This document shows positions 4,925-31,617 of a stretch of 38,046 nucleotides of DNA, piece after piece (the stretch's first letter is position 1; each line of letters begins with the position of its first letter). Origin of the DNA: Candidatus Aegiribacteria sp. (GTDB lineage Bacteria; Fermentibacterota; Fermentibacteria; Fermentibacterales; JCC-6); NCBI GenBank assembly GCA_030594645.1, contig JAUVEU010000025.1, forward strand, positions 1 to 38,046, in the 5' to 3' direction. A model generated the notes under the pieces. It did no database searches. It saw only the letters and a program-made list of their open reading frames with translations, and was not told the origin of the DNA. A program made the position numbers and the translations under genes.

Positions 4925-4982
4925 GGAGACATACAGCAGATACGAGGTTTTAGGGGACACACAGCAGAGCCTGTATGTCCCC
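4925..4982 (+). repeat. Dispersed intergenic hairpin repeat, copy A
   Basis: A 28-nt lead unit (4925-4952) is followed by a 30-nt imperfect palindrome (4953-4982). The palindrome has arms GGGGACA and TGTCCCC, a conserved C/A mismatch, an inner stem ACAG/CTGT and the 6-nt loop CAGAGC. The inner stem differs from the other copies (GCAC/GTGC) but still pairs, which is a compensatory change. The copy lies between two plus-strand genes and ends 24 nt before the next start codon. Confidence 0.8.
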
Positions 4983-5006
4983 GGATATTCTCTGGAAGGA
5001 GATAAA

Positions 5007-5756
5007 ATGAACAAACGTATATTCATCGTTCTTGCCGCAGCACTGATGCTTTCATCAGGAGTTGTTAGCGCGGACTGGCTTTATGCTGTAGACGGAGATT
5101 ACCTCTACAGTGTAGATCCTTCCGATGGAACATGGAACTCCCTTTCCTCATCATGGAGCGGAACAGAACTGCTGACATCCTGTCAGGGTAATCTGTATGC
5201 CATTCAGGGAGATAACCTTTACATTGCCGATCCGGACAATGGCGACTGGGAATCTCTCTCATCAACATGGGAGGGCGCTAATGCTTTAACCGCCAGCGCA
5301 ACTTCTCTATACGCATGTCAGATGGGAACCATATACAGGGTCGACCCTGGCAATGGCGGATGGGAAAGCATTCCGGGTGTTTACGATGGAACACAGTTTC
5401 TCGCATGGGCCGGAGGAGCACTGATGGTTATCCAGGATGATGTCCTCTACCGAACAGACCCTGCCTCCGGTGATTACACGGAGCTTCCATCTTCATACTC
5501 CGGAACTACAGCAATCGCGGGAAGTTCAAATGCTTTATACATTGTTCAGGGTGATGTTCTTTACAGGGTAGATCCGCACACCGGGGACTATTCCGACCTT
5601 GGAGGAGGATATCAGGGTGTAACTGAAATGGCTGTGGCTGATGGCCTGATCTATACTATCTGGGAAGGCACCCTCTGGGTAACCGATCCGGATACAGGTG
5701 AATATGCCGGTCTTACCGAGAGCTGGGAGGGTGCAACGGCATTCTGCTCGCTGTAA
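5007..5756 (+). CDS. Small secreted protein with six beta-propeller-like repeats
   Basis: The 249-residue protein starts at an ATG with GGAAGGAG 5 nt upstream and has a signal peptide (1-22, ending VSA). The rest is six tandem repeats of about 38 residues. Each has the pattern xLYxVxGDxLYxVDPxxGxWxxLxxxWxGxxxL, for example NLYIADPDNGDWESL and VLYRVDPHTGDYSDL. Six such repeats would close a six-bladed propeller, so the protein probably folds as a compact ring; it ends right after the sixth repeat. Unlike its neighbours it has no sorting domain, so it may stay in the periplasm. No catalytic motif is visible and the ligand is unknown. The gene is bracketed on both sides by copies of the intergenic hairpin repeat. 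Confidence 0.75.
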   Translation: MNKRIFIVLAAALMLSSGVVSADWLYAVDGDYLYSVDPSDGTWNSLSSSWSGTELLTSCQGNLYAIQGDNLYIADPDNGDWESLSSTWEGANALTASATSLYACQMGTIYRVDPGNGGWESIPGVYDGTQFLAWAGGALMVIQDDVLYRTDPASGDYTELPSSYSGTTAIAGSSNALYIVQGDVLYRVDPHTGDYSDLGGGYQGVTEMAVADGLIYTIWEGTLWVTDPDTGEYAGLTESWEGATAFCSL

Positions 5757-5768
5757 GAGTACTTCTGT

Positions 5769-5855
5769 GGGGACACGCAGCAGAGGCTAGGTTTTTGGGG
5801 ACACGCAGCAGAGGCTAGGTTTTTGGGGGACACGCACCAGAGCGTGCATGTCCCC
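5769..5855 (+). repeat. Dispersed intergenic hairpin repeat, copy B, with two identical lead units
   Basis: Two identical 28-nt direct repeats (5769-5796 and 5797-5824, each ending in GTTTTT) are followed by the 30-nt palindrome at 5826-5855 (arms GGGGACA/TGTCCCC, inner stem GCAC/GTGC, loop CAGAGC). The first 12 nt of each lead unit resemble the left arm of the palindrome, so the lead units may be degenerate half-elements. The last base is also the last base of the addA stop codon on the other strand. It fills the junction of two convergent genes. Confidence 0.88.
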
Positions 5856-8800
5856 TATATGCTGAAAACTGTTCCTTCTCTCAGAAATACAAGGTAACCT
5901 CTCGCAGGCAGACCAAATAATCTGGAAATATCCTTAATGTACTGCTGCTGCTTCTCGATATACTGCTGCGCAACCTGCTCCGTGGTTCTTCCATCAAAGG
6001 TGTCGGTCTTGTAGTCCACTACAACAAGCTCGTTGTCAATTCTGAGCAGGAGATCTATGTACCGTTTTTCCAGCCCGTTGCATGTACTTGTAGTAATGTA
6101 TGGATATTCTCTGCTGATTACGAGAGATTGCTCAATGCTGAAAGGAAGTTCCATCCGGAACAGTCTTAATGATAATTCTCTGATTTCATCAAAGTCATCA
6201 CCATACATTTTTTTAAGAATACTATCATGTTCTGCAAACCAGCTGAGGGGATCGGAGAAGTCGATCTTCTGCAGAACTGCGTGAACGTCATCACCTATTC
6301 TGGCCCCTCTGCGCTGCCAGTTTTCCGGTTTCATCTGAACCTCAAACAGACTTTCTTCATTGTCGGAATAATCCCCGCTAATTACAGTGTTCAATAAGGC
6401 GCTTTTTATGAAAGGTAATTCATCCACCTGTTCCATCTCCTCAATAATGCAGCACTCAGGATCCTTTTCAACAGCCCCCTGTAAGCTTGACCACATAATA
6501 CCTGCGGGGGAGCTGCCGGGATTCTCAAGAGAACTGACAAACAGAACCAGAGACTCTCTCGGCCTGGTTACCGCTACATAAAGAAGTCTTCTTAACTCCG
6601 CGCTTTCTCTTGCCTTGTTCTTCTGTGTTATTTCCGGCCAGAAGGGTGTTTTCAGCTTGTATTTATCTTTCCTGTCCATGGGAATACCAAGATTGAATGC
6701 GGCTATTTCATCATGATCATATGAAATGACCGGTGTTCTGGAACCTGCACGTCCGGAATTGCTTTTCGGCAGAGCAACGAGAGTAACGTGCTTCCATGCC
6801 AGGCCTTTTGCCCTGTGAACCGTGGTCAATGTTACCGCGCTGCCGTCAGACGGAACGTTTGATGGTTCTTCTGTCCTTGCGGGAGAAAGATTCTCATCCA
6901 GAAAACCAAGCAATTCCTCACAGGATGTAATATTCCCCGCCAGAACCTGCTCAAGAATGTACTGCAGGTTTCCAAGTCTCCGGATCTCCTGATACCCGGT
7001 TGCCCGAATCACCGGAATCATTTCCGTCTGGAAGAAAAGCTCGAAGAGGAAATCAGCAAGAGGAAGAGTTCTGATAGATTTCCTGAATCTTCTGAGACAA
7101 ATATTTGCCTTGAGTATCGAAAGGGGGCAGTTCTGTTTCTCATCCATATATCCTGTCGTACCATCTTGAATTGCAGTGTTGATAACAGGATCGGATATTC
7201 CGAAGAACAGCGAACGGAGAGAATGAGCCCAAGCGAGCATATCATTCCGGTAGAGCAAGCATCTCAGCAGTTCCTTCAGATCGATAATTTCGGGACGTGC
7301 GCGAAAATCTCTCGTAGCGTCAACAAAATACGGGATGCCCTCTCTCTCCAGCACGTTAACGAAATGGTGAAGGTGAGTTGTCGACCGCATGAGCAGGGCA
7401 TAATCTCCGGGAGATTCACCATCAGCAAATCCGCTCTTGAGATAAGCGGCAAACCACTCTGCCTGCAGTACGGTCTGGTATGCAGGTTCGCTGTATCTGT
7501 CCTTCAGATTATCGGGCAGTTCGGGGAGAAGTACCATTTTTACAGGGACCCCTTCAACTGCTTCAGGGCACGGTTCTATAGGCGAATAGTCGCACCCGAA
7601 TGCTTCCTCCTCAGGCGTTTGTCTTTCAAACAGCTCGGTTCCGAAGGTGTTTACAAAGCGAATTATCCTTCTGCTGCTTCTGAAATTAGTTATAACAGTC
7701 TCTTCAACAGCACCGCTGCGTTCAAGCTTCTTTCTGAAATCGCGATATGTTTCTATATCCGCGTTTCGCCAGCCGTAAATGGATTGTTTGTCATCCGCGA
7801 CGATTGTAATACTTCCGCCGGGAAGCATACCGGCCTGCTGAATGAATGCGGTAAAAAGATTTACCTGATCCGAACTGGTATCCTGGAATTCATCTATCAG
7901 TATATGATCGAATTTCTTCGAAAGACAGGAAGCCAGTGTACCACTGCTGGAAATCGCTTTCCATGCCGTATAAAGCAAATCGTTGTAGGACAACCTGCTT
8001 CTGTCACTGTCCCATTTACTGCGAAGCTCCTGCGCGAAGGAACTGGCAAAATTCCATGTCTGTTCAGTAATTTTCCCTGATTTAAGGACAGGAGCAATCC
8101 TTATAAATTCTTCTCTCGCTTCACGAAGAGATGTTTTTGCCCTGTCCTTGTCTTCCCAGTTCTTCCCGCTTCCTGAATTGAGTTTGATGACGGAACACAG
8201 ACTGACGACTTCTTCGTAATTACCATCTGAAAGATTTTCTCGAAGGTTCTTCAATCCCGCAATGAACTCTGCTCCAACCCTGAACAGTTTGTCGGAATGA
8301 TCACTGCATTCATCAAGAATCTCCTCGATTGCGGAGCCATGCTTATCCTCGAAAACATCGAGAATTGAGAGGGCTGCTGTCCTGTCTCCTATATTGTCAA
8401 TTGAAACCAGCCACCGACGCTCTTCTATTCCACGCGATATTTCAAGCACTTTGTCAGTACCTATCTGAGCCAGAGCATCTTTACTGTCTCTTAACCTGTC
8501 CCTTTCAAGCCGGAGAAGCCATGCATCCCATTCACGTATTATCTCGGATGGTGTGAAATGCCTTTCTGTCGTTGTGAAAGCAGGGTCAACTCCTGTGAAA
8601 TTGAAGTATTCCCTGAGTACTCTCGACGCAAAACCGTGTATAGTAGTAATCCACGCTCCGGGAATTGCTGACAGCGCTTCATCAAATTCCTTTCCGCCCG
8701 AATTTTTCATTGAGCGGAGTTTTTCTCGTATTCGGGAACGCAGCTCTGCTGCCGCTGCATTTGTGAAAGTCACAACCGCAAGTTTCTCAATCGGAATTCC

Positions 8801-8944
8801 GATCCTCAGGAGTTCAATGACCCTGTCGACTATCAGGGTTGTTTTCCCTGTGCCGGCACTGGCCTGAATAAACACATTTCTTCCGCTCTCAGAGCGGATT
8901 GTCTCTCTTGCCTTCATATCGGAGGTATTTATTCTGGTTTTCAT
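5855..8944 (-). CDS. addA: AddA-like UvrD-family helicase/nuclease subunit
   Basis: This 1029-residue protein is a superfamily 1A helicase fused to a RecB-type nuclease. Visible motifs are the Walker A site ASAGTGKT with Lys34, VVTFTNAAAAEL (motif Ia), the Walker B site DEFQDT at 351-356, DDKQSIYGWRNAD, TTVHRAKGLAW (motif V) and VAVTRPRESL (motif VI). The C-terminal PD-(D/E)XK nuclease has Asp964 in RYIDLLL and Asp977/Lys979 in VVDYKTD. With AddB it would process double-strand DNA ends for recombination and degrade foreign linear DNA. The length is a little short for AddA but complete. Its ATG overlaps the addB stop as ATGA, so the two are translationally coupled. The stop codon touches a dispersed hairpin repeat. 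Confidence 0.9.
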   Translation of the reverse strand: MKTRINTSDMKARETIRSESGRNVFIQASAGTGKTTLIVDRVIELLRIGIPIEKLAVVTFTNAAAAELRSRIREKLRSMKNSGGKEFDEALSAIPGAWITTIHGFASRVLREYFNFTGVDPAFTTTERHFTPSEIIREWDAWLLRLERDRLRDSKDALAQIGTDKVLEISRGIEERRWLVSIDNIGDRTAALSILDVFEDKHGSAIEEILDECSDHSDKLFRVGAEFIAGLKNLRENLSDGNYEEVVSLCSVIKLNSGSGKNWEDKDRAKTSLREAREEFIRIAPVLKSGKITEQTWNFASSFAQELRSKWDSDRSRLSYNDLLYTAWKAISSSGTLASCLSKKFDHILIDEFQDTSSDQVNLFTAFIQQAGMLPGGSITIVADDKQSIYGWRNADIETYRDFRKKLERSGAVEETVITNFRSSRRIIRFVNTFGTELFERQTPEEEAFGCDYSPIEPCPEAVEGVPVKMVLLPELPDNLKDRYSEPAYQTVLQAEWFAAYLKSGFADGESPGDYALLMRSTTHLHHFVNVLEREGIPYFVDATRDFRARPEIIDLKELLRCLLYRNDMLAWAHSLRSLFFGISDPVINTAIQDGTTGYMDEKQNCPLSILKANICLRRFRKSIRTLPLADFLFELFFQTEMIPVIRATGYQEIRRLGNLQYILEQVLAGNITSCEELLGFLDENLSPARTEEPSNVPSDGSAVTLTTVHRAKGLAWKHVTLVALPKSNSGRAGSRTPVISYDHDEIAAFNLGIPMDRKDKYKLKTPFWPEITQKNKARESAELRRLLYVAVTRPRESLVLFVSSLENPGSSPAGIMWSSLQGAVEKDPECCIIEEMEQVDELPFIKSALLNTVISGDYSDNEESLFEVQMKPENWQRRGARIGDDVHAVLQKIDFSDPLSWFAEHDSILKKMYGDDFDEIRELSLRLFRMELPFSIEQSLVISREYPYITTSTCNGLEKRYIDLLLRIDNELVVVDYKTDTFDGRTTEQVAQQYIEKQQQYIKDISRLFGLPARGYLVFLREGTVFSI

Positions 8945-11808
8945 CGGATGGTCGTCATCCCGCTGAGCAGTTCCACTCTGCTGTCAGAGACAGCTTTAGT
9001 CCTGATTCGCTGAGATGGTGTTCTTCTGCACAGGTTTTTGAAATTGCAGAATTCGCAGTTTCCGGTTGGAATCGGTGGAAAAATACCTCCCTGCATCATT
9101 GAAGCAATTCTCTCGAAATTCTTCCGGACTGTATCCATAATCTGCTCAATACCATCACCTGAATAACCGACAAGCCTGCCAGGCTCCCTCGCTGAAATAC
9201 CGGCATAGGTTACTTTTGATATACTCTTTCCAGTGTAGCTGTCTTTCATCATCCGGTAATAGAATGGAAGCTGGTAATACTTCCCTTTTTCAATCTCCTT
9301 CCTCGAAGGAAGCCTTCCTGTCTTCAGATCAAGAACAACAAGATTTTCGTTTTTATCCTCAAGAATAAGATCAATCCTGCCGCAGATATCCAGACCGCCT
9401 ATTTCCCCATTCAGGTCTACTTCTCTGTCGATGAACTTCCATTCTTCAGCAGCAAGAACTTCAAGACTTTTTCGGATTATCTCCTTCTGCTTCTCCAGAA
9501 AGAGTTCCTCGAGAAAAGGGTTACCGAGTTTCGATTCAAGATCGGACTTATCGGCCTCACGAAGGAGAATACTCATTATCTCATCATCGGAAGGTCGAAA
9601 CCCGTGCAGACGGATTATATCCTCAACTGTTTCATGAACGATTTTACCTGTAAGGCGGGAATCGGGAGAACTGCTCACGAGAGGTATCTTTCTCTCATTC
9701 AGCTTCCATATCTTCCCGGCAAGATATGCGAACGGACATCTTACGTATTCCTCAAGCATGGTTGCCGTATACACATGTTTTTTGAACGGAGAATTATCGA
9801 AAACGCCGTCGTAGCTGTCAAAATCTCCGGTGCCCATCCGGGAACTCTCTGCCGTGAGAGAACTGACAAAAAAAGGATTTCGGGGCAAACTATCACTGCT
9901 CAATACAAAGGCTCTCTGCTGCCCCTTATGTGTTCCGCCAAGCATCTGCTCAATCGCGGAAGAGGAACTCACACTGAACCATGCGGGATCGGGAGAATAA
10001 TCGGAATCGACGGTTACAAGATTTGAGATAAACGAAGACGGATATATTTCACTCCCTGCGGCATCTCTTTGTCGGTAAATTATATCCAGTGTTCTACCGG
10101 CGGTTTCTCCTGCCTGCCTGAGCAGATATCCATCCTCTGTTTCTCTTTCGGATTTCAATGTCATCTGCAGTTTTTTTCGCAGTTCGTCGCTGAGGCGGGG
10201 ATCCTCAATTGAAGGGCTGGGATAAATTCCCTCTTCAAGATCCATCAGTATCACACTGCTGAAAATGCTTCCTCTTGCCTTCTCTATTGTGAGAACCTGG
10301 AAACCATGCCGGGAGCCATCTCGCAGGACAATGGCCTTCTCCTGATAATACAATCGAAGAGCATCTGTGAATTGCCTCCATGAAACTTCTCGGTCCCAGC
10401 GGAAGCTGTTCATATCAAAGAGAGCTTCCATCAGTTCTGACGGCAGCCTTCCTGCTGATATATCTTCCACAAGGATTTTTAAACGGTTCAGATAATCAAC
10501 GGGTACCGCCTTATCCGGAAGGCCACAATAAAAACCATCCAGTTTCCTTAAAAGTCTGCCTGACTTATTACCGCTATCAAGAGATACGAACCAATCCCTC
10601 CATTGTCCGCGTCCCATGCGGATTCCGCTTGTTTCGACAATCCTGGCTATTTCAGACGGACCGGGATTGAGATCATCTGCCAGAATGCCACTGGACATGA
10701 TCTCTTCAATCAGGGTATAGTGAAAGTCTCCATCATCGATACACGCCAGATCAAGTACAAATTTCCCTTCCGGTACTGTGGATAGTTTTGCTTTAAGGGA
10801 GCAAGCGGTCGGAATGCCCTCATGGTGAGCAAGAAACGCGAGACTGTCATCCTCAATTTTCCTTCGGATCACGGCTATATCTGAAAATGGAATCTTATGT
10901 TTTGAATTGAGTTCGATGATTCGTTTCAGCGCTGCCCTTGAAGCACCCATTTCTCCGGAAACAGCAGTGATATGAAAACCATCTGCAGGCACTGATGGAC
11001 GGGATTGCACGTGAAGAGCTTCAAAAAAATCAGCAAAGGGATTCATGGCTTCCCTGCCTCCAGGCACCCTGATTGAAATAATTCCCTGATCCTCAAGCAA
11101 TTTCCTGGTTCTGGTATAAACCTTATTCCACTGAGAGTGCTCTTCCAGCGGACTGAACCAGAATATTCCTGAGTTATGATCAAGGAATCGTCTGAGAAAT
11201 CGTCTCTGGGCGGGATTAAGATCGTAAAAGCCGTAAAAAACAGTTGCTCCCGTTTCTGTATGTGGAAGTAACTCCTCCATTATCATATCTCCACAGCATG
11301 CATAACGCTCTCTTCGATATGCGCTGTACTTCCCGAACACTCTTCCGATAACGATTTCTGTTTCCGTCTGTTCCCCGGAAAGCGAAAGGGAAGTCTGCTC
11401 GTATATGTCCGGAGTTACTCCGTGTTCAAAAAGGTTTTCGAAAAATGTTCCCATGGAATGAGCGGTTTCGGAATTTTTCCTGAGATAGTAGAGAGGTTCG
11501 TCCGGCTTTATTGCTTCCATTGCCCACAGAGTGAAAAAAGTCCTGTCAGCGTGGCTGACAGTCTCCATAACCATGGGTACAGCACTTAATTCGGAAGCAA
11601 GATGCCTGATACCTGGAAGGAACTTCACCCCTCCAATGATTCCCCGGGAGCTTTTCTTCAGAAGAAGCTCACGCAGTCTGTCCAGCTGTCCGGTTCCCGC
11701 AGTAATAACGGTCAGATGTTCACCACTGGAGAGGATTTCTCCGGCAAGCTCAAGAAAATCAGTCTCAAGCGCTCTGTAATGACCCTCATAAAGAGTTTTT
11801 ATGCCCAT
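8941..11808 (-). CDS. addB: AddB-like nuclease subunit with Fe-S cluster motif
   Basis: The 955-residue protein is the first gene of the addB-addA pair. The N-terminal half is a degenerate helicase fold: TVITAGTGQL replaces a Walker A motif, and the region about 500-530 (QVLTIEKARGSIFSSVILMDLEEG) resembles helicase motif V. The C-terminal third is a PD-(D/E)XK nuclease with IDLILED and VVLDLKTGR (Asp827, Lys829). Four cysteines, Cys691 in YVRCPFAY and Cys918/Cys921/Cys927 in CEFCNFKNLC, match the CX2CX5C plus distant Cys arrangement that binds a 4Fe-4S cluster in AddB nucleases. With addA it should form the AddAB end-resection complex. AGGAAA lies directly upstream of the ATG. The low overall conservation is normal for AddB. 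Confidence 0.85.
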   Translation of the reverse strand: MGIKTLYEGHYRALETDFLELAGEILSSGEHLTVITAGTGQLDRLRELLLKKSSRGIIGGVKFLPGIRHLASELSAVPMVMETVSHADRTFFTLWAMEAIKPDEPLYYLRKNSETAHSMGTFFENLFEHGVTPDIYEQTSLSLSGEQTETEIVIGRVFGKYSAYRRERYACCGDMIMEELLPHTETGATVFYGFYDLNPAQRRFLRRFLDHNSGIFWFSPLEEHSQWNKVYTRTRKLLEDQGIISIRVPGGREAMNPFADFFEALHVQSRPSVPADGFHITAVSGEMGASRAALKRIIELNSKHKIPFSDIAVIRRKIEDDSLAFLAHHEGIPTACSLKAKLSTVPEGKFVLDLACIDDGDFHYTLIEEIMSSGILADDLNPGPSEIARIVETSGIRMGRGQWRDWFVSLDSGNKSGRLLRKLDGFYCGLPDKAVPVDYLNRLKILVEDISAGRLPSELMEALFDMNSFRWDREVSWRQFTDALRLYYQEKAIVLRDGSRHGFQVLTIEKARGSIFSSVILMDLEEGIYPSPSIEDPRLSDELRKKLQMTLKSERETEDGYLLRQAGETAGRTLDIIYRQRDAAGSEIYPSSFISNLVTVDSDYSPDPAWFSVSSSSAIEQMLGGTHKGQQRAFVLSSDSLPRNPFFVSSLTAESSRMGTGDFDSYDGVFDNSPFKKHVYTATMLEEYVRCPFAYLAGKIWKLNERKIPLVSSSPDSRLTGKIVHETVEDIIRLHGFRPSDDEIMSILLREADKSDLESKLGNPFLEELFLEKQKEIIRKSLEVLAAEEWKFIDREVDLNGEIGGLDICGRIDLILEDKNENLVVLDLKTGRLPSRKEIEKGKYYQLPFYYRMMKDSYTGKSISKVTYAGISAREPGRLVGYSGDGIEQIMDTVRKNFERIASMMQGGIFPPIPTGNCEFCNFKNLCRRTPSQRIRTKAVSDSRVELLSGMTTIR

Positions 11809-13818: not shown

Positions 13819-13842
13819 TTCCGCGGGAAGTGAGTTCAGCGA

Positions 13843-15663: not shown

Positions 15664-16379
15664 CGACAACAGCACAGCTTGGAAGACAGCTGCTTTCAAT
15701 CCGGAACAGAATCACCTCTGAGAAGGAACTTTCCGGTTTGCGCAAGTTGCGGAAAAGGGAAATCCAGCTTCTTAATGAGCTGGGCAACACTTCTGCTGCG
15801 GTCGCTTCGGGTGAAAACCTTATCTCGGATTATCCGTTATGGCCTGCCGGACATTCGATTCTGGCCGATGTTCTGTGCAGAGCCCGTAAATGGGAGGAAG
15901 CTGAAAAGCTGTTTGAAAAAGCTGCGGATCTGTATGAGAAAGCAGACAATCCTGATTCAGCTGCCAGGTTGAGAATGGGACCTGTTTACAGACTTTCCGA
16001 GGCAAGAAGTGACTTCAGTAAGTGCCTGAAGCTCTGCGGAAATGACAATGAACTTGGAGCAGTTCTTCAGGTGCGGTGCAAAAGACAGATGAATCAGAAG
16101 ACATCCCTTCCGGAGGCATGTGCCGACTGGATTGCCGGAAAGCTCCTCCTTCTGGAACAGGTCCTCCTGGGGAAATCTCCCTACAGACTTTTTGATGAAG
16201 TTGTTGAATGGAAAAGCACAGAACCGGAGTGGAGATGGCGGTTCATCGTAGAAAGTATTGAAATCTGGCAGAGTCACAATTTTAATACGGAAAAGTGGCG
16301 GAAACCTGTAAAGGATACTGCTCTGCCTGTTCTGGATCCGAGATTTACAAAGGAATGGAGTAAATTATCCAATGACTGA
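15660..16379 (+). CDS. Small TPR-like protein of unknown function
   Basis: I place the start at GTG 15660, which overlaps the stop of the HD-GYP gene as GTGA with GGGG about 10 nt upstream; an ATG at 15621 would give a 42-nt overlap and is less likely. The 239-residue product has no signal peptide. Residues of about 40-105 are TPR-like (two helix pairs including WEEAEKLFEKAADLYEKA), followed by helical, Trp-rich sequence ending in WRKPVKDTALPVLDPRF. No catalytic motif is recognised. Its tight coupling to the two TPR/HD-GYP genes suggests that it works with them, perhaps as an adaptor. It overlaps queF by 8 nt. Confidence 0.65.
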   Translation: MTTTAQLGRQLLSIRNRITSEKELSGLRKLRKREIQLLNELGNTSAAVASGENLISDYPLWPAGHSILADVLCRARKWEEAEKLFEKAADLYEKADNPDSAARLRMGPVYRLSEARSDFSKCLKLCGNDNELGAVLQVRCKRQMNQKTSLPEACADWIAGKLLLLEQVLLGKSPYRLFDEVVEWKSTEPEWRWRFIVESIEIWQSHNFNTEKWRKPVKDTALPVLDPRFTKEWSKLSND

Positions 16380-16773
16380 CAATTCAGATATGGAAGGACT
16401 TACAGCTCTGGGAGGGAAGAGTCTTCCTTCAAAAAAACTGGAGGTATTCCCTAACCATCATCCCGGCCGTAATTATATTGTAACACTCACCTGTGATGAG
16501 TTTACCTGCATCTGTCCCCAGACCGGTCAGCCGGATTTTGCCTCGATCTCCATTGAATACGTGCCTGGCATAAAGATCGTGGAATCCAAATCACTGAAAC
16601 TCTATTTCTGGTCCTTCAGGAATGAGGGAGTTTTTCATGAGCATGTAGCCAACATCATCCTTGATGATCTTGTGAAAGCTCTGGATCCACGATGGTGCAG
16701 AGTTATCGCCGACTTCGGAATCAGAGGAGGTATTTCAATTTCTGTCGATGCCGAATACGGAGAGGCTCCGTAG
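16372..16773 (+). CDS. queF: NADPH-dependent 7-cyano-7-deazaguanine reductase (preQ1 synthase)
   Basis: QueF reduces the nitrile of preQ0 to the amine of preQ1, the last free-base step before insertion into tRNA as queuosine. The 133-residue protein matches the short, single-domain (B. subtilis type) enzyme. It has the active-site stretch EFTCICPQTGQPD with nucleophile Cys48 and Asp55, the QueF signature ESKSLKLYFWSF, and the following NEGVFHEH. The start ATG overlaps the upstream gene by 8 nt with GGAG at about 12 nt. The other preQ1 genes (folE2, queD, queE, queC) lie just across the convergent junction on the minus strand, so the pathway is complete but split between two transcripts. The downstream junction holds a hairpin repeat. 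Confidence 0.95.
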   Translation: MTDNSDMEGLTALGGKSLPSKKLEVFPNHHPGRNYIVTLTCDEFTCICPQTGQPDFASISIEYVPGIKIVESKSLKLYFWSFRNEGVFHEHVANIILDDLVKALDPRWCRVIADFGIRGGISISVDAEYGEAP

Positions 16774-16778: not shown

Positions 16779-16808
16779 GGGGACACGCACCATAGAGTGC
16801 ATGTCCCT
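16779..16808 (+). repeat. Dispersed intergenic hairpin repeat, copy C
   Basis: A 30-nt palindrome with arms GGGGACA and TGTCCCT (one terminal mismatch), the conserved C/A mismatch, inner stem GCAC/GTGC and loop CATAGA. It has no lead unit. It occupies nearly all of the 47 nt between queF and the convergent hydrolase gene and could act as a terminator for both. Confidence 0.8.
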
Positions 16809-16820: not shown

Positions 16821-18356
16821 TCAGCGATCTGCAAACCTGTGCATCAGCAATTCCTCCAGATCAAGTATCAGTTCACCTGCCCAGGGACGCTGGCGGTCAC
16901 CGGTTCCGGCGTATGTAGCTGCCGCTATCTCCGGATCCATCTCAACTGATCCGGAAAAAATCTGATGACCGTTGCATATGACGGTAACTTCCCTGTCAGG
17001 ATCAACCATATCCGGATGAAGCAATAATCGGAGAACGCATAATCTGTTTACTTCAATGTCGAAGCAGTTGTCAGCGTAGACCGCTTCCACTCTCACTGAG
17101 GGCACACTTCGGGGAAACAACCAGTAGTACTCCGGCGGGTTGAGGTTGCCTGTCAAATGTACCTGATCACTCCCTCTTTTTACATCCATGGTAAAATGAT
17201 CTCCAGGGGACATCTCCGACATGAGCAGGAAAAGGTCTTCCAGATCCGTTACGGGACAATCCTGAAAACCGATTATTACATCGTCTGCCTTCAGATCTAT
17301 CCTGTTAGCAGGGGTATCACCATCTAGAACCTGTACAACTGGAATGCCGTCGCCATTCGCTTCCCAGTCAGGCATGAAACCAATGGTAAGCCTTTCAGAG
17401 ACAAGAACCATGTTATGGTCGGTATCCTCCGTCAGCACAGGCCATGGAATGATTGAATCCACCATCAGCCAATCGCAGCCTGAGGGCTCCCCGGCTCTCC
17501 AGATAAGATGTCCAGGGAAGCGCTCCCTGTACGTAGTATCAATAAAATTCAGAACATCTTCCTCAAGCAGAGGCAGGTAATCAGCATCGTGTTCGTAGCC
17601 TTCAAAAGTGTAATATGCTATCTTCGCTCCTGCTTCCTGCGCAAGTTCAACTGAAGGAGACATAACCGCTGAAGGGTACAGACCGTCCTCGTCAGTGTGA
17701 GATGCAATACCCGGACGGTTTGAAAGACTTGAAAGGTATGTGGCTCGACCGCCATCTATTGCTGCTACTCCCAGATGTCCTGAGAAAGCAAGGTAACCCG
17801 CAAACGGAGAGGGCTGCAGCATCATCAGCGCCCAGCTGCCGGAAGCCCCATCAGAAAATCCTCCGACGAACACCCGCGAGTCTTCGATATTGAGCCTGTG
17901 CTTGAGAGCGGCAATTATGTCCATTATTCCCTGCTGACCAACCAGATCCCACCATACCGCTCCGCTCTGAGCACAGGGGAAAACCAGTATACAACCCATA
18001 TCAAGTATACCGGGGATCAGATGCCACTCGGTCAGCACTTCCGGTTCGTAATCACTGAGTTCCTGAGTACTTACGCCTCCATGAAGCCATACCATCAACG
18101 GTGCCGGGGTACCTGATTCGTAGGACAGCGGAACAGCATAGTAGAAGTGCCGGTAAACGCTGTCAGCATAAAGCACACTGTCCTCAAGCAGGACAGCTCC
18201 GGGAAGATCAAAACCAGTATCGGGATTGTATGCTTCTATGGCAGAGGCAGCTTCAGCTGCACTTTCACATCTCGAAGCGATGCTCAGATCATCTGCATCT
18301 CCTGCTGAAGTAATTAGTGCAATCAGAACCGGAACATATTTAATCCGATAATTCAT
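16821..18356 (-). CDS. Secreted alpha/beta-hydrolase (esterase-like) with C-terminal PDZ domain
   Basis: I start at ATG 18356, giving 511 residues with a signal peptide (1 to about 21, YVPVLIALITSAGDA); AAGAGA is 7 nt upstream. ATG 18362 is nearly as good, while the longer frame from 18440 overlaps folE2. The catalytic domain (about 40-270) has the oxyanion motif VWLHGG, the nucleophile elbow GGFSDGASG with Ser168 and a probable catalytic His in GYEHD, as in PHB-depolymerase or feruloyl-esterase-like hydrolases. A PDZ-like region (about 320-410) contains NGDGIPVVQVLDGDTPANR and ADDVIIGFQ. The last 100 residues are beta-rich and unassigned. It would act in the periplasm or outside the cell; the substrate is unknown. 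The gene is 13 nt behind folE2, an unexpected partner for queuosine genes. Confidence 0.78.
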   Translation of the reverse strand: MNYRIKYVPVLIALITSAGDADDLSIASRCESAAEAASAIEAYNPDTGFDLPGAVLLEDSVLYADSVYRHFYYAVPLSYESGTPAPLMVWLHGGVSTQELSDYEPEVLTEWHLIPGILDMGCILVFPCAQSGAVWWDLVGQQGIMDIIAALKHRLNIEDSRVFVGGFSDGASGSWALMMLQPSPFAGYLAFSGHLGVAAIDGGRATYLSSLSNRPGIASHTDEDGLYPSAVMSPSVELAQEAGAKIAYYTFEGYEHDADYLPLLEEDVLNFIDTTYRERFPGHLIWRAGEPSGCDWLMVDSIIPWPVLTEDTDHNMVLVSERLTIGFMPDWEANGDGIPVVQVLDGDTPANRIDLKADDVIIGFQDCPVTDLEDLFLLMSEMSPGDHFTMDVKRGSDQVHLTGNLNPPEYYWLFPRSVPSVRVEAVYADNCFDIEVNRLCVLRLLLHPDMVDPDREVTVICNGHQIFSGSVEMDPEIAAATYAGTGDRQRPWAGELILDLEELLMHRFADR

Positions 18357-18369
18357 TTTCATTCTCTTT

Positions 18370-19179
18370 TCAAATATCTGTTGAAGGGTTCCTGAACCAT
18401 TCAACCCTCGCATAAGCATTATGGTTGTGTATGCTCTCATGGTTTTCTGCTGTAACCTGGAACCAGGTCACTCTTTCATCCTTCATCAGTTTCTCGGCGG
18501 CATTTCGAACCATATCTTCAACAAACACCGGATTATCATAAGCCTGTTCAGTTACATACCGTTCATCAGGCCTCTTGAGAACCGCGTAAACTGGGGACGA
18601 TGCCGATGATTCCGCTATCTCGATCAGTTCCTCTATCCAGACAATCGCCGGACTCCCGCTCTCGTCAGGTCTGCTTCTGACATCAATCGTAATATATCCC
18701 CTCTGGTTATGCGCTCCATACCTGCTGATCTCTTTGCTGCACGGACACAAACTGCTGACAGGCACGGATACACTCAGGATAAAATCAGTTGAATCGGGAC
18801 CGGTTCTCCCTTTAAACCTGCACTGATAACTCATTTTTGCAGAGGTATTTGTTACAGGGGCTTTTCTTTCGAGGAAATACGGAAAACTGATTTCCATACT
18901 GGCTGATTCAGAGTCGAGAACCTGTTTCAGTTCCTCCAGAATTTCCGGGATTGTATGTCCTGTAAACTCGCAGGAGTGTCTGCTGAGAACTTCCACAAAA
19001 CGGCTCATATGCGTGCCCTTGAAATGGTGAGGAAGCGCAACTGACATCGAAATAGTCGCAATTGTCTGCTGTTTTTCGTTTTCCCTATCAAGAATTATTA
19101 TCGGGTATTGAAGATCTTTTACCCCGGCTTCGTCAAGTGGTATTCTCCGCGGGTCATGACTGTTCTGAACGTCGTTCAT
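18370..19179 (-). CDS. folE2: GTP cyclohydrolase IB (FolE2 type)
   Basis: This metal-flexible enzyme converts GTP to 7,8-dihydroneopterin triphosphate, which feeds QueD and possibly folate. I start at ATG 19179, which overlaps the queD stop as ATGA and begins MNDVQNSHDPRRIPL, the normal FolE2 N terminus; the 34-residue longer frame would lie inside queD. At 269 residues it has normal length. The catalytic Cys147 lies in SLCPCSKEIS and is followed by RYGAHNQRGY with His157; SFPYFLERKAPV is another family landmark. The type IB enzyme, rather than zinc-dependent FolE, fits an organism that tolerates low zinc. Fourth gene of queC-queE-queD-folE2. Confidence 0.93.
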   Translation of the reverse strand: MNDVQNSHDPRRIPLDEAGVKDLQYPIIILDRENEKQQTIATISMSVALPHHFKGTHMSRFVEVLSRHSCEFTGHTIPEILEELKQVLDSESASMEISFPYFLERKAPVTNTSAKMSYQCRFKGRTGPDSTDFILSVSVPVSSLCPCSKEISRYGAHNQRGYITIDVRSRPDESGSPAIVWIEELIEIAESSASSPVYAVLKRPDERYVTEQAYDNPVFVEDMVRNAAEKLMKDERVTWFQVTAENHESIHNHNAYARVEWFRNPSTDI

Positions 19180-24332: not shown

Positions 24333-24358
24333 GTTAACTGCAAAAGTTTTGTTAACTG
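24333..24358. repeat. Short GTTAACTG direct repeat with potential hairpin
   Basis: GTTAACTG occurs at 24333-24340 and 24351-24358 around CAAAAGTTTTG. The segment can also fold as GTTAAC...GTTAAC with an AAAA/TTTT stem and a 3-nt bulge. It lies just downstream of the GNAT gene stop on the minus strand and ahead of the HAD gene. It could be a weak terminator or a binding site. Confidence 0.35.
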
Positions 24359-24362
24359 GCAT

Positions 24363-25154: not shown

Positions 25155-25174
25155 GATCTCCTCTTATTCAACAT

Positions 25175-25558
25175 TCAGTCATCTGTCGTTTCATCATCCC
25201 AATTGTAGAATGAGATGTTGATTCTTTGATTCAGTTCCCAGTCGTATACATACAGAATCATGTCAGCATGTACGAAACGGGAATTAAAATTTTCAGGATT
25301 ATTGTACTCCGCAACGGAGATGGAGTAGCGAGATGTCAGTCTAAAGTCCGCATATCCAGTCTGGCCTGACCATATACTGACTGCGTGAACAGCATCCGGA
25401 TAGTAGATCTTCACGATTTCCTCTACCTGCGCTTCGCTCATGTCGGGCTGAATTCGGCCCAGGATCTGATTCACACCATCGGGAAACAGAGGCTCATCGG
25501 CAGCGAATACACCAGTTATGACTGAGAACATTATGATTGCTACGGTGATCAGTTTCAT
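25175..25558 (-). CDS. Small secreted protein of unknown function
   Basis: The 127-residue protein has a clear signal peptide (1-19, ending VFA before ADEPLFP). The mature part contains RIQPDMSEAQVEEIVKIYYP, reminiscent of the helix-helix start of SmpA/BamE-like folds (compare GMTEAEV), then beta-rich acidic sequence ending in WDDETTDD. I do not recognise the family. AAGGAG lies 4 nt upstream of the ATG. First gene of a minus-strand run, directly downstream of a candidate promoter. Confidence 0.65.
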   Translation of the reverse strand: MKLITVAIIMFSVITGVFAADEPLFPDGVNQILGRIQPDMSEAQVEEIVKIYYPDAVHAVSIWSGQTGYADFRLTSRYSISVAEYNNPENFNSRFVHADMILYVYDWELNQRINISFYNWDDETTDD

Positions 25559-25595
25559 TTTACTCCTTCGCCGGTATACAGCACCAGAGATTCGT

Positions 25596-25625
25596 ATTAT
25601 CTCGTTTCGATAAAATATCGAACAA
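25596..25625 (-). promoter_or_regulatory. Candidate promoter with overlapping palindromic operator
   Basis: On the minus strand, TTGTTC (25620-25625) and GATAAT (25596-25601) are 18 nt apart and could drive the gene at 25558. The 17-nt palindrome TTCGATAAAATATCGAA (25606-25622) fills the spacer and touches the -35 box, the position of a repressor site. The rest of the divergent region to 25828 is AT-rich with no other clear element. Confidence 0.4.
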
Positions 25626-25828
25626 TCAGTATTTCATATTAATACATATTTTATCGTTTTCATGCCATTATTTCATTTCCATGCATGAAAAAACCGTCCA
25701 GCGTTTTGAACGTGAAACATTGCGTTCCATCCGTCTCAGAAGTAGATTCTTATTATAGGTTGCTGTTCGTCTCTATATTCAGAAATCCAATATTAGAGAA
25801 TACGTATGATATTCTAGTGGAGGCTATT

Positions 25829-27067: not shown

Positions 27068-27549
27068 AGAGAAAAATCTTCACTGTTTCCGTTTTCTTTC
27101 TTGCCGTTCTGATTGCGTGCGGTGACGATGATGGTGCTTCCACAACTGTAAAATCATTTGCTGCTGCTATTTCCGATTCCAGCTACGCTGAAGCCTGGTC
27201 TCTCATAACCCCGGAAAGCCGTCAATGGTACGATTCAACCGCTTCAATACTTCATGAATTCGGCTGGACCGAATCCAGAGAGGCTGCATGCAGACTTGCG
27301 GGCGACATGACGGAAGAAGAATTCCTGAACCTTACCGGTGAGGATCTTTTCGCGAGGATGGTCACAAGTTCTTCAGATGCACATAATCTCAGTACCAGCA
27401 TAAAGTCTGTCAATTATCCTGACAGTCTGGTCTGTGTAGTTGTCGTCAGAATAGATGATGGTCTCCAGGAGGTTATCGTCAGAAAAGTCGGAGAGAGCTG
27501 GCTGATAGACCTGACCAGTCTGTCTCCACCGTTTGAAGGGGGAGAGTAG
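27064..27549 (+). CDS. Small lipoprotein, possibly NTF2-like
   Basis: The GTG start overlaps the DUF1015 stop by 4 nt. The 161-residue protein has a short lipoprotein signal with lipobox VLIAC, lipidating Cys19. The mature domain (TTVKSFAAAISDSSYAEAWSLI followed by a final beta-sheet with GESWLIDLTSL) looks like the DUF4878/NTF2-like alpha-beta fold used by many small bacterial lipoproteins. No catalytic residues stand out. It is probably anchored in the inner or outer membrane, facing the periplasm. Confidence 0.7.
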   Translation: MKRKIFTVSVFFLAVLIACGDDDGASTTVKSFAAAISDSSYAEAWSLITPESRQWYDSTASILHEFGWTESREAACRLAGDMTEEEFLNLTGEDLFARMVTSSSDAHNLSTSIKSVNYPDSLVCVVVVRIDDGLQEVIVRKVGESWLIDLTSLSPPFEGGE

Positions 27550-27550
27550 C

Positions 27551-27886
27551 ATGAATGGAAAGAGCAGGGGTATCATTATTTTCGCGTTTATTTTCGGAGG
27601 AGTCGGAATACTCTTCCTGCTCTGGGGTCTTGGAGTATCAGTCGGCAAATGGTGGCCTGCTTTCTTCACCGCGGTAGGACTTGCTTCATTCGCGCGTGGA
27701 ATGCGTGAAATGGGAAATGTAATACTGGGTTTACTTCTTGTGGGCTGGAGCATCGCGGGGATCGTCTGTCTCCATGCAAGCGAGCTTAAGATTGACCACG
27801 GCCTGCCGTTCTTCATCGGAGCATTCATTCTATGGATCCCACTGGCCTGGCTCTTCGGGAAATTTCTGAGTACGGATACAAAGTAG
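27551..27886 (+). CDS. Small four-helix membrane protein
   Basis: I start at ATG 27551, one base after the lipoprotein stop, with GGGAGA upstream; a TTG at 27533 would overlap that gene. The 111-residue protein has four likely membrane helices: about 8-29 (IIIFAFIFGGVGILFLLWGLGV), 35-50, 56-75 and 84-106. The pattern recalls the LiaI/LiaF-like membrane segments often found in envelope-stress proteins, but that is only a resemblance. Third gene of a DUF1015-lipoprotein-membrane protein operon. Confidence 0.65.
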   Translation: MNGKSRGIIIFAFIFGGVGILFLLWGLGVSVGKWWPAFFTAVGLASFARGMREMGNVILGLLLVGWSIAGIVCLHASELKIDHGLPFFIGAFILWIPLAWLFGKFLSTDTK

Positions 27887-28018
27887 TTTCACGCACCAGA
27901 GCAACTTGTTTTCAGGGGACACCCACCATAGAGTGGATGTCCCCGTTTGCTTTTTCAGAGTGGATGTCCCAGGGGGGGTTGTCGCTTTTATTGGTGGGTG
28001 GCACTGTTTGTGTCCCTA
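27885..28018 (+). repeat. Dispersed intergenic hairpin repeat, copy D, with degenerate flanks
   Basis: A degenerate lead unit (27885-27914) is followed by the 30-nt palindrome at 27915-27944: arms GGGGACA/TGTCCCC, conserved C/A mismatch, inner stem CCAC/GTGG and loop CATAGA. The inner stem is again a compensatory variant. A partial right half, CAGAGTGGATGTCCCA, follows at 27956-27971. A second motif, GGTGGCACTGTTTGTGTCCCT, ends at 28018 and resembles an inverted, diverged element. The whole convergent junction between 27886 and birA consists of this material. Confidence 0.78.
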
Positions 28019-29002
28019 GGAATTGTGGTTCGCTATATGAGCGTCTCCGGCATAAACTTTACGGATAGTACCGGTGGAAAGTTTCACCATGAGGGATCCA
28101 TTATCTGATAACCCGGTGGCAACACCGGCAATTATTTCTGAGGGGGTTTCTATTTTAACATTCCTGCCAATCAGGAGTGAATATCTTTCCCATTCTTCTA
28201 CATATCTCTTCAGATTCCGATCCTGCAGCCATTCCAGATAAATTCCCTCCAGTTCCTCCAGCAAAGATGCGGATAATTTCGTTCTGGAGTATTCCTGACC
28301 AGTTTCTAATTTCAGGGATGTAGCAATATCGGAAATACAGGAATCCATAGATGTCACGTTTACATTGATCCCTATTCCCACAACTACATGATTGATCTGA
28401 TCCGTGTCGGATTTCATTTCGCAGAGTATTCCGCACACTTTTTTCCCCTGGCACAGAATATCGTTCGGCCACTTGATCTGAAAAGGAAGACCAGTATGCA
28501 GCTTTTCCAGAACTCTGACTACAGATATGACTGAAATCACCGGGATTTGCGAAGCTTCCGCAGGTGAAACGGATGGGCGAAGAATGACAGACATGTAAAG
28601 ATTACACCCTGGAGGAGAGAACCAGTCTCTACCCCTTCTTCCACGTCCGCCGGTCTGGGAATCGGATGTTACCACTGTCCCATGAGGCGCTCCGTCGGAA
28701 GCAAGAAGCATGGCAACGCTGTTCGTGGAATCTATTTCCCTGTGGAAAATAACTGTTTCTCCTATCGTCCTGGTGCTGAGAAAGCAGTGAATCTCCTCCT
28801 CAGAAAGCATATCGGGAGATGAAGCAAGATGATAACCTTTGTTGGGAACAGCATCTATTATGTATCCTGTTTTCCGAAGATCTTTAATATGCTTCCAGAT
28901 TGCAGCCCGGGTAAGCCCGAATTCCGTAGATATCTGCTGACCTGAAATATATCCTGTGCCTGATCTGAGCATTTCAAGAATTCCGCTCGAGACTTTATCC
29001 AT
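28016..29002 (-). CDS. birA: Bifunctional biotin ligase and biotin repressor
   Basis: BirA makes biotinyl-AMP and attaches biotin to carboxylase subunits; forms with an N-terminal helix-turn-helix also repress biotin genes. I start at ATG 29002 (GGGG 8 nt upstream, MDKVSSGILEML); the TTG six codons earlier is less likely. The 328-residue protein has the HTH region (about 5-55, QISTEFGLTRAAIWKHIKDL), the ligase loop GGRGRRGRDW (118-127), KWPND (177-181), GIGINVN and a C-terminal SH3-like domain. The HTH means that it can bind DNA, and a matching palindrome lies at 29089-29120. No biotin synthesis or carboxylase genes are in the window. Confidence 0.94.
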   Translation of the reverse strand: MDKVSSGILEMLRSGTGYISGQQISTEFGLTRAAIWKHIKDLRKTGYIIDAVPNKGYHLASSPDMLSEEEIHCFLSTRTIGETVIFHREIDSTNSVAMLLASDGAPHGTVVTSDSQTGGRGRRGRDWFSPPGCNLYMSVILRPSVSPAEASQIPVISVISVVRVLEKLHTGLPFQIKWPNDILCQGKKVCGILCEMKSDTDQINHVVVGIGINVNVTSMDSCISDIATSLKLETGQEYSRTKLSASLLEELEGIYLEWLQDRNLKRYVEEWERYSLLIGRNVKIETPSEIIAGVATGLSDNGSLMVKLSTGTIRKVYAGDAHIANHNS

Positions 29003-29088
29003 TGTTATTACCCCATGCAAATATGGTGAAGATCAGAAGGATATCCGGAAAGAAAAAGCTTTTTGAACCATGAGAACCAGCGTCTGAA

Positions 29089-29120
29089 TTGTCAACCTGT
29101 CATATCGATTCGGTTGACGT
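29089..29120. promoter_or_regulatory. Candidate BirA operator upstream of birA
   Basis: TTGTCAACC (29089-29097), 14 nt, then GGTTGACGT (29112-29120). The 7-bp arms GTCAACC and GGTTGAC are perfectly inverted. Spacing and half-sites fit the published BirA signal TTGTAAACC-N14/15-GGTTTACAA. On the minus strand one arm provides TTGACA, a good -35 box about 90 nt before birA, though no good -10 box follows at 16-18 nt. Suggests autoregulation of birA. Confidence 0.6.
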
Positions 29121-29146
29121 TAAGCACCTCCCGCACAAGAGAGGAT

Positions 29147-31492
29147 TTAGTCTATGAAAATCGGCTGCATGAGATAAAGAATCTGCTCCAGATTGAACAA
29201 ATTCTGAATTCCGGATGTGACTCCGAAACCGGGCATTTCAATTGAGCCGGGGAAAGAAGGTGTCGGATATATCCGTACACGGATATCTTCATCCGAATCC
29301 ATTCCTGACATTCCAGCTGCGTAATGAACAGCGTCAACAACCCCGCCAATCTCGTCCACAATTCCTATCTCGACTCCATCGATTCCGGACCAGACTCTTC
29401 CCTGAGCGATAGAATCAACCTCCTCAAAGGTCATCCCCCGGCCTGAAGCTACCTTTTCAACAAAGAGGTTGTATCCATCCTCCATCAGGTCGAAGGTTCT
29501 GCTTCTTTCTATATCTGTATATGGCCGGAAGTTGCTGGACATTGACGCCATTGAACTTGTTGATACTTCTTCAACATTGATGCCGAGGTTATCCAAAAGC
29601 TCTCCGAAAGAGAATTTTCCTGATATTATCCCTATAGAACCTGTTATCGTCATTCTGTCCGCGAATATTCTGTCTGCTCCACAGGCCATATAGTAACCTC
29701 CGGATGCGGCAACTCCGCCCATGGAAACTATCACCGGGATATTTTCTCTGATTCTTTCTACTGCATGATGCATATCATCACTTGCCAGAGCATCACCTCC
29801 AGGAGAATCTATCCTGAGGACAATTGCTGAAACGCTGGACTGCGACGCAGCAGTACGAAGAGCATCACAGATAGATTCGCTTCCCATAACTCTCCCGAAT
29901 GGGAATGATGATCCGCTGTGCCCTCTCCAGATGTATCCGGTAGCAACGACAACTGCGATGTGTTTATCCTGTCCCCAGTCGTTGTATTCAGGTATGGAAG
30001 ATGCATATTCCTCGATCGGGACCGTTGTAAAATTACTCCCGAAATCTTCTCTTGCCAATCTCTCGACTTCATCAAGGTAACAGAGTCCATCAACCATTCC
30101 GTAATCAACCGCTCTCTGAGCAGTATAGGGACCTGTGTCCATTATCCTGCGAAGCTGAGCCGGTTCAAGCCCGCGTCCATTGGCCACACCTGCTACTAAT
30201 TCCGCCTGCAGCGACGAAAGCAGGGTTGTCATGGCCCGTATATGGGCATCGGACATATCTGATCTTGTCATCATATCACTTGCGTTCTTGTATTCACCTA
30301 TATGCACCAGGTCGGGATAGATACCGATACGGTCAAGAAAATCTCTCAGGAAGAATGCTTCTGAGGAAAGGCCGATGAATCTAATTTCTCCGCATGGATG
30401 TATCCAGATTCTGCTCGCACAGGACGCAACATAATACTCAGCGTTACTGCCGTTTTCCAGATAGACATATACCTTTTTGCCTGATCTCACTATCCTGCTG
30501 AGAAGAGTACGAATCTCTTCAGCCTGAGCAAGAGAGCCGACAGGACCTCTGATGTCCACTATCACACCGGATACAGACTTGTCGGAAGCAATTCTGTCGA
30601 GCAGAAGAGCCGTCTCGGTGTAGCAGGGCTGAACACCGCTGAGGAAAGGTCTCTGCTGAAGCTCGTCCATATCCTCTATTTCAAAACGCACGAACCTGCC
30701 GGAAGGAGTGAGGAGATTCGGACCAGGGTCGGATGAGAATGTGAAATCAGCCCTGGAACCGGAATAAGAGTAGTCCTCGTCTGTGGTTGCCCCGCAGGCA
30801 AAGGACGTCGACCCGAATCCGGCCTCAAGTCCTAGACTGAGATAATTACTCCCAGCTTCAGCACGAATAGTCAGACCATCCATGGGAAGAAATTCGAATC
30901 CACCTGAAAACTGGTTGTTATCAAAATCCTTTTCAGTTTCAAAATTAGTAACCAGCGTAAGCCTGTTCCCAAAAGGTCTGACTGCAATTCCGGCTCTGTA
31001 GACAGATTCTACATCATCCCCTGGAAGATCGACTCCCCCTCGCCGTACCAGTCCGAAGCTGAACCATTCAACGGGTCGAATTGTAAGCCCGAGCGTAAAG
31101 AAATGTTTTCCGGACCATTGATGTCCTTTAACTGTTGGATCGAACCAGGTGTAACCGACACCAACGGATGCTATCTGATCAAACAGGTACGTTCCACTCG
31201 ACAGAGTGAATCGTCGCATGTCGTAATCATCATTCCACCATCCCGATATGCCTGCCCCGGGAAATGCTATGGATAGACGATCAACTCCCTCAAAGGCGCT
31301 GTCAGAAGCAGCCATGCCTATTCTCAATCGGAGGCTGTTTATAAAATTGTATCCGGCAGGATTGATCAATTCAGGATTGCCGACTTCAGGATAAGCTACC
31401 CAGTTAAATATCTCCTGGGGACCAGGAGCTACAGCTGCTGCTGCGATAGAGGAAAACAGCACCAGCACAAATACAAAACTGATCAGTTTCAT
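29147..31492 (-). CDS. sppA: SppA-type protease with an N-terminal beta-barrel-like region
   Basis: The 781-residue protein has a signal peptide (1 to about 19). Residues of about 25-265 alternate short amphipathic beta strands (GVGYTWFDPTVKGH, FFTLGLTIRPVEWFSFGL, SLGLEAGFGSTSFACG) like an outer-membrane barrel. Two SppA (S49, ClpP-like) domains follow. The dyad is split as in E. coli SppA: Lys402 in GEYKNASD lies in the first domain and Ser597 in VAASGGYYMAC in the second, 195 residues apart (200 in E. coli). SRIDSPGG-like LRIDSPGGDA and TGSIGII are further landmarks. SppA degrades membrane and signal-peptide remnants. A fused barrel would place this enzyme at the outer membrane. AGGGAG precedes the ATG. 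Confidence 0.88.
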   Translation of the reverse strand: MKLISFVFVLVLFSSIAAAAVAPGPQEIFNWVAYPEVGNPELINPAGYNFINSLRLRIGMAASDSAFEGVDRLSIAFPGAGISGWWNDDYDMRRFTLSSGTYLFDQIASVGVGYTWFDPTVKGHQWSGKHFFTLGLTIRPVEWFSFGLVRRGGVDLPGDDVESVYRAGIAVRPFGNRLTLVTNFETEKDFDNNQFSGGFEFLPMDGLTIRAEAGSNYLSLGLEAGFGSTSFACGATTDEDYSYSGSRADFTFSSDPGPNLLTPSGRFVRFEIEDMDELQQRPFLSGVQPCYTETALLLDRIASDKSVSGVIVDIRGPVGSLAQAEEIRTLLSRIVRSGKKVYVYLENGSNAEYYVASCASRIWIHPCGEIRFIGLSSEAFFLRDFLDRIGIYPDLVHIGEYKNASDMMTRSDMSDAHIRAMTTLLSSLQAELVAGVANGRGLEPAQLRRIMDTGPYTAQRAVDYGMVDGLCYLDEVERLAREDFGSNFTTVPIEEYASSIPEYNDWGQDKHIAVVVATGYIWRGHSGSSFPFGRVMGSESICDALRTAASQSSVSAIVLRIDSPGGDALASDDMHHAVERIRENIPVIVSMGGVAASGGYYMACGADRIFADRMTITGSIGIISGKFSFGELLDNLGINVEEVSTSSMASMSSNFRPYTDIERSRTFDLMEDGYNLFVEKVASGRGMTFEEVDSIAQGRVWSGIDGVEIGIVDEIGGVVDAVHYAAGMSGMDSDEDIRVRIYPTPSFPGSIEMPGFGVTSGIQNLFNLEQILYLMQPIFID

Positions 31493-31542
31493 CCCTTACT
31501 CCCTCTTCTGCGGAACCGGAAATTAATTACGCTGCTGTATTC

Positions 31543-31617
31543 GTAGACACGCACCAGAACACCATGCTTCTTGGGGACACGCACCAGAGCGTGCATGTCC
31601 AGAGCGTGCATGTCCCC
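31543..31617 (+). repeat. Dispersed intergenic hairpin repeat, copy E, with duplicated right arm
   Basis: A diverged lead unit (31543-31572) precedes an element at 31573-31617. It is the GGGGACA...TGTCCCC palindrome (inner stem GCAC/GTGC, loop CAGAGC) in which the 15-nt right part AGAGCGTGCATGTCC is exactly duplicated in tandem (31586-31600 and 31601-31615). It lies between two minus-strand genes, in a 205-nt gap. The remainder of the gap (31618-31697) shows nothing clear. Confidence 0.8.

Follow-up and report, generated by a model that had tools for sequence, protein, structure and literature searches.

Repetitive extragenic palindromes (REPs), with their composite forms BIMEs and REPINs, are short extragenic palindromes with a mismatch in the stem. 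They form mosaic arrays, lie at convergent and same-strand junctions near gene 3' ends and go with genome-encoded proteins of the REP-associated tyrosine transposase (RAYT, TnpA-REP) type, as set out in PMC8266576 and PMC2817692. Di Nocera et al. (2013; PMC3733652) report that REPs prefer convergent and same-strand junctions near 3' ends, and describe TIRtrons, in which Y1 genes (TIRYT) are bounded by long terminal inverted repeats (TIRs) that also occur in the genome as moderately abundant single, dimeric and grouped repeats. Many TIRYT ends carry the motif GGGGWSAS (PMC3733652 and PMC6006769), and TIRYT proteins hold a Y1 domain and usually a C-terminal helix-turn-helix (HTH). Here we analyze a 30-nt hairpin repeat, GGGGACA at one foot and TGTCCCC at the other, that is present in five copies in one contig of Candidatus Aegiribacteria sp. 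(JAUVEU010000025.1, 38,046 nucleotides; hereafter the window). It corresponds to contig C153 of the genome G000 (3.07 Mb in 158 contigs, 94% complete).

We find that the hairpin adds another case to a known kind of repeat and does not represent a new system, since it resembles the repeats known to accompany single-strand DNA transposases. It is probably a non-autonomous, REP-like "TIR repeat" mobile element, spread by a RAYT/TIRYT-type Y1 transposase and tolerated behind stop codons. We claim a likeness of kind to TIR repeats and not a proven TIRtron derivative, because a Y1 gene with the same ends was looked for in the same genome and not found. The REP features listed above recur in this genome, as do Y1 genes with long TIRs and moderately abundant single, dimeric and grouped TIR repeats, and on the oriented strand of most copies GGGGACAC fits GGGGWSAS; the other end, GGGGACAT, misses the last letter of the motif because the C·A mismatch in the stem is kept in 40/44 copies. 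Unlike the TIR repeats of TIRYTs, however, this abundant hairpin family lacks a matching TIRYT among the Y1 genes found in the genome that carries it, and its units are fused 30-nt hairpins with a retained mismatch and arrays of half units. Like tagged REPs, it is a palindrome of 20-40 nt, extragenic and repeated (42 loci, a moderate copy number, one of them inside a called open reading frame (ORF)), but other TIRs, and not this hairpin, flank the Y1 genes of this genome. With intrinsic (bidirectional) terminators it shares a G+C-rich hairpin at convergent gene ends; it differs from them in that most copies have no U-run after the stem on either strand and in being a dispersed sequence family.

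The hairpin, its fold and its copies

In the fold, a C·A mismatch separates an outer stem of 7 bp from an inner stem of 4 bp, which closes a loop of 6 nt. On the reverse strand the mismatch becomes a G·U pair, and in the three copies folded on both strands this strand is the more stable, at -22.2 to -24.1 kcal/mol compared with -16.4 to -18.8 kcal/mol for the other. The sequence-only reading had assigned one pattern to five palindromes in the window. All five are present and three of them (copies 1, 2 and 4) match GGGGACAC-N4-N6-N4-A-TGTCCCC exactly, while copy 3 terminates in TGTCCCT, giving a G·U closing pair, and copy 5 carries a 15-nt duplication. Across both strands of the window GGGGACA occurs 14 times; 100 shuffles average 4.43 (sd 1.95), and no shuffle reaches 14. 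A scan of the window against Rfam at gathering thresholds gave no match.

Genome-wide, the pattern GGGGACA-N(10-24)-TGTCCCC yields 36 palindromes in G000 and none in a reversed control, and 31 of the 36 match GGGGACAC...ATGTCCCC on one strand. The covariance-model search proposed by the sequence-only reading, run with a model built from 14 sequences (R1) and counted at E<=0.05 after removal of two reverse-strand duplicates, finds 44 distinct copies at 42 loci. Half units with at most three mismatches lie near many of them, left-arm units within 45 nt upstream of 16/44 copies and right-arm units downstream of 4/44; this threshold overlooks decayed units such as the one ahead of copy 1. Repeat arms of another type, those of the Y1 gene L020 described below, adjoin 6/44 copies, and 19/44 have neither half units nor L020 arms.

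It had further been claimed that the inner arms change together. In the alignment of 14 sequences (A2, which omits four of the 18 rows of A1: two of 29 nt, one of 28 nt and a copy cut at TGTCCAG) all 154 of 154 cells are paired. Both-sided changes occur at the inner pairs 9/22 and 12/19 and one-sided changes at 1/30 and 11/20. Eight cells carry a both-sided change, against 1.8 in shuffles (0/500 reach eight), while the number of both-sided pairs, two, is reached in 229/500 shuffles and is not distinctive. Conservation of the outer arms proves nothing, because the sequences were picked for intact outer arms. Pairing is thus kept in a larger set, as predicted, but the changes fall into a few recurrent subfamilies, which can arise through replacement or template switching. 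Since subtypes and orientations are swapped whole at orthologous sites (see below), the covariation does not show selection on an RNA and is weak evidence for selection on pairing.

Position relative to genes and in relatives

The sequence-only reading placed a hairpin at every convergent gene junction. With the ORF list and a simple home-made hexamer gene caller, all three convergent junctions of the window have a copy, none of the three divergent ones does, and two copies lie between same-strand genes. This is a property of the window. Among the 42 loci of G000, one is at a contig edge and one inside a called ORF; the 40 classified loci comprise 23 same-strand, 13 convergent and 4 divergent junctions, against 125, 14 and 21 element-free gaps, and 14 of the 27 convergent gaps in the fetched stretches have no copy. 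The background gaps come from stretches fetched around copies and not from random stretches. The convergent share is nonetheless enriched, with a Fisher p of 3e-4 relative to the full set of element-free gaps and of 0.005 relative to those of at least 40 nt, so that the distribution over junction types is not even. Divergent loci (4/40) equal the share of divergent gaps by number (p = 0.79), and divergent gaps make up 23% of gap bases; these junctions are therefore occupied less than their length predicts and as often as their number predicts. In contigs of the relatives G014, G007 and G004 and one contig of G009, the same-strand, convergent and divergent loci number 13, 8 and 2, against 94, 6 and 11 gaps (p = 4e-4), with 11 of 34 loci left unclassified for want of a gene on one side. 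The preference for convergent junctions is thus a true bias, and the rule weakens genome-wide.

Copies tend to sit just behind stop codons, which would account for the enrichment at convergent junctions. The median distance is 36 nt to the upstream stop and 89 nt to the downstream start, and the upstream 3' end is the nearer one in 16/22 untied loci (p = 0.05). Orientation is also biased: the mRNA carries the more stable, G·U strand in 18/23 same-strand loci of G000 (hand tally) and 10/13 in relatives, with a pooled p of 0.001 over loci that are partly common by descent. Single-strand transposition is expected to give an orientation linked to replication. The mean GC skew at fourfold sites is +0.021 for the 17 regions that hold plus copies and -0.046 for the 12 that hold minus copies (p = 0.14), and within contigs skew and orientation agree in 17/21 pairs (permutation p = 0.03).

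We compared 40 genomes by exact palindrome. G000 has 36, G017 36, G014 37, G007 21, G004 10 and G019 16, and the other 34 have 0-4. The first five form a close cluster with about 82-90% DNA identity in the window; G019 belongs to another genus and its palindromes have other loops. Orthologous sites, whose "EMPTY" marks were checked by eye for the window sites only, reveal polymorphism. At site 1 (copy 1), G007 and G014 hold a copy in the opposite orientation and G017 another variant. Unit number and subtypes at site 2 differ among G000, G014, G007 and G004. G017, G014 and G007 lack a copy at site 3, where both flanks match. At site 4 the left-hand gene matches in G016 and G010 and has no copy behind it; the right flanks of these two genomes are unmatched. 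At site 5, G007 has a longer tandem array; the start of its contig C227 (L095) holds at least four tandem units GGGGACACGCACCAGAGCGCCTGGCTTTTTG.

Y1 transposases and the explanation of the repeat

No RAYT or Y1 gene lies in the window, as had been stated, and a Y1 search of the genome confirms it. Elsewhere G000 has nine Y1_Tnp genes, all above the cut-off, with REP-associated tyrosine transposase (NCBIfam) as the best match for 9/9 (four at or above the 80-bit cut-off, one of these at exactly 80). HTH-type matches at E<=0.1, all below the Pfam cut-offs, are present in eight of the nine proteins and absent from the short type L021. A script detected TIRs of 19-32 nt for 8/9 genes, and an imperfect TIR of L018 is visible by eye. 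G000 has 17 exact TIR arms of L020, a number that takes in two at the gene itself and five short paired elements; of the 25 exact arms of L021 (AGTGCCACCCACCAATAAAA), three are at the gene and one is in the window, next to copy 4. Two head-to-tail left TIR arms, 38 nt apart, precede the L021 gene itself (L021:1282-1340, G000:C6:28816-28874), with the half-unit layout seen in the hairpin arrays. At about 2710-2735 of G000:C34 there is a solo TIR arm of the L071/L077 Y1 type (G014, G007), which is absent from the nine TIRs of G000 and so is present here without its transposase. On the downstream side of L024 (G000:C88), the TIR of the gene directly adjoins a stretch that resembles, by eye and from its motif, the end of a tmRNA gene.

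A search of 25 genomes gave 101 Y1 hits; 77 were fetched, three had no ORF passing the filter, and 74 cassettes were scanned. Two candidates from other genera emerge. L225 (G024, another family) has a perfect 24-nt TIR, TTATGGGGACACATCACTTATCTC, which contains GGGGACAC. L050 (G019) has a 43-nt TIR that includes GGGGACACCATCA, and its ends recur in G019 around at least two stretches that hold no gene; the L050 protein is 56% identical to L021 over 213 residues. At G019:C450 (L202-L204) we note 117-nt tandem units with an L050-type TIR arm that end beside a tRNA-like sequence, judged by eye with no tRNA search. In the 74-protein tree, L225, L050 and L021 share a group of 18 rows, supported at 99/100 and with its inner order resolved only in part, together with L066 (G017), L207 (G004), L073 (G014), L076 (G007) and ten proteins from hairpin-poor genomes. 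This grouping is at most suggestive. L068, which was entered in the wrong reading frame in the cassette scan and the tree, has an L023-like TIR and contains no GGGGACA anywhere.

Mobility had been proposed from the sequence alone, and it is supported by a dispersed family that is polymorphic between congeners in a genome with nine RAYT-type Y1 genes. In the proposed element a 6-nt loop lies between short inverted ends (GGGGACAC...ATGTCCCC), and no transposase gene is enclosed. It would have spread through this Aegiribacteria lineage most likely by a RAYT/TIRYT-type Y1 (HUH) transposase acting on single-stranded DNA. Inserted copies would be inherited, with half units of 28-30 nt gained or lost and subtype or orientation switched in place, as seen at orthologous sites, possibly through slippage, template switching or re-insertion. 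Loss of insertions into genes and promoters would be the simplest reason for the place behind stop codons.

Several observations weigh against this. A Y1 gene flanked by the hairpin, which the sequence-only reading had proposed to look for, does not appear among the nine in G000: GGGGACAC bounds 0/9 cassettes. Only L050 and L225 (2/74 cassettes) are flanked by GGGGACA at left and TGTCCCC at right, and both match the hairpin over the first eight bases only. Y1 gene number bears no clear relation to hairpin number (G018 has eight genes and two palindromes), no target duplication was seen by eye at the orthologous sites, and no conserved tag flanks the hairpin (GTAG/CGTC within 6 nt of its foot in 0/44 on either side). 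In most of the orthologous pairs that were found, both species have a copy, in a set biased by fetching loci because they were occupied; a clean empty site is consequently shown at one window site only. A cognate Y1 gene was not found in G000. It is possible that the gene is missing from the assembly, since G000 is 94% complete in many contigs and drafts would tend to break at such repeats. In the stretches L166, L173, L185 and L189 of relatives, a contig start is no more than 100 nt away from a copy.

A further reading, which we consider unlikely, is a satellite repeat that has lost, or never had, its own transposase and spreads with the Y1 enzymes of other lineages. Short-type TIRYTs that recognize no more than the first bases of GGGGACAC would cut its free hairpins, and further copies would travel as cargo within the loops of palindromic elements that belong to another TIRYT. 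If it were true, the orientation bias would give transcripts the more stable hairpin. That the hairpin is a passenger, riding in the loops of palindromic L020 solos (GGGGCCGGGCCTAACAT arms) and spread mainly by the L020 transposase, is less probable still. In G000 all five short elements with both exact L020 arms enclose GGGGACAC, and six of the 44 hairpins lie beside at least one arm, but 38/44 have no L020 arm within 75 nt, and in G017 only one of five paired-arm elements holds the exact palindrome. Turnover of array length and subtype at orthologous sites, with tandem duplications of 15 and 28 nt, could also come from local mutation of tandem or palindromic sequence (slippage, template switching) with repeated origin and no mobility. 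A near-identical 30-letter sequence at 42 dispersed loci, the retained mismatch and the empty orthologous site make this highly improbable.

An intrinsic terminator was tried and rejected: 0/5 window copies score in a terminator scan, and among the 8 nt that follow the stem, five or more are T in 3/44 copies on one strand and 1/44 on the other. The suggestion of a two-way terminator is not supported, with U-runs rare on both strands. A host-used RNA element that protects or forms mRNA 3' ends without a U-run, selected for pairing and position, is a doubtful alternative, on a par with the satellite. It would account for the convergent enrichment (13/40 loci against 14/160 gaps; 8/23 against 6/111 in relatives), for the mRNA carrying the more stable strand and for the short distance to the upstream stop. 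However, most congeners have few or no copies, the orientation is flipped at site 1, no terminator-like tail is present, half of the sampled convergent gaps (14/27) are empty, and the upstream 3' end is the nearer in only 16 of the 22 loci. Occupied and empty orthologous junctions of the congeners offer a natural comparison for the effect of the hairpin on mRNA 3' ends.

We therefore retain the mobile TIR-like repeat as the probable explanation. A hairpin at every convergent junction of one window can stem from a mobile repeat and not from a terminator system. The biology of REPs and TIR repeats would thereby extend to an uncultured phylum, whose genomes carry as many as nine RAYT-type genes, the majority of them with terminal repeats of their own. 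A literature search for Aegiribacteria transposases found no paper, and among the papers listed for a GGGGACA palindromic repeat none was on the topic by title; we do not claim that the family is unpublished.

Features in the window

The hairpin copies are accompanied by half units, arm remnants and a solo L021 arm that the sequence-only reading had overlooked (Table 1). The last base of copy 2 is also part of the stop codon of the minus-strand ORF 5855-8944.

Table 1. Hairpin copies, half units, arm remnants and solo arm in the window
Feature	Position	Strand	Context
Left-arm remnant ahead of copy 1	from about 4926	+	decayed unit
Hairpin copy 1	4953..4982	+	between same-strand genes 2958-4916 and 5007-5756; exact pattern
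Two head-to-tail half units	5769..5824	+	left arm GGGGACACGCAGCAGAG plus spacer with TTTTT end
Hairpin copy 2	5826..5855	+	convergent junction; exact pattern
Hairpin copy 3	16779..16808	+	convergent junction between QueF-like gene 16372-16773 (by Pfam) and 16821-18440
Left-arm half unit preceding copy 4	27888..27914	+	
Hairpin copy 4	27915..27944	+	convergent junction; exact pattern
Spacer plus right-arm remnant after copy 4	27945..27970	+	remnant about 27956-27970
Solo arm, exact match to TIR of Y1 gene L021	27986..28005	-	beside copy 4
Left-arm half unit preceding copy 5	31545..31572	+	
Hairpin copy 5	31573..31617	+	between same-strand genes; 15-nt tandem duplication of right arm

The window also holds a 290-nt repeat at 22-311 and 2548-2837 (95% identical), with a third at 4677-4966 (60%). 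It spans the 3' ends of neighboring genes and a terminator-like hairpin, GCGGGAGAG...CTCTCCCGC, at 286-309 and 2812-2835. Genes 415-2787 and 2958-4916 both have a Por_Secre_tail sorting domain, and the latter also has a Peptidase C25 domain.

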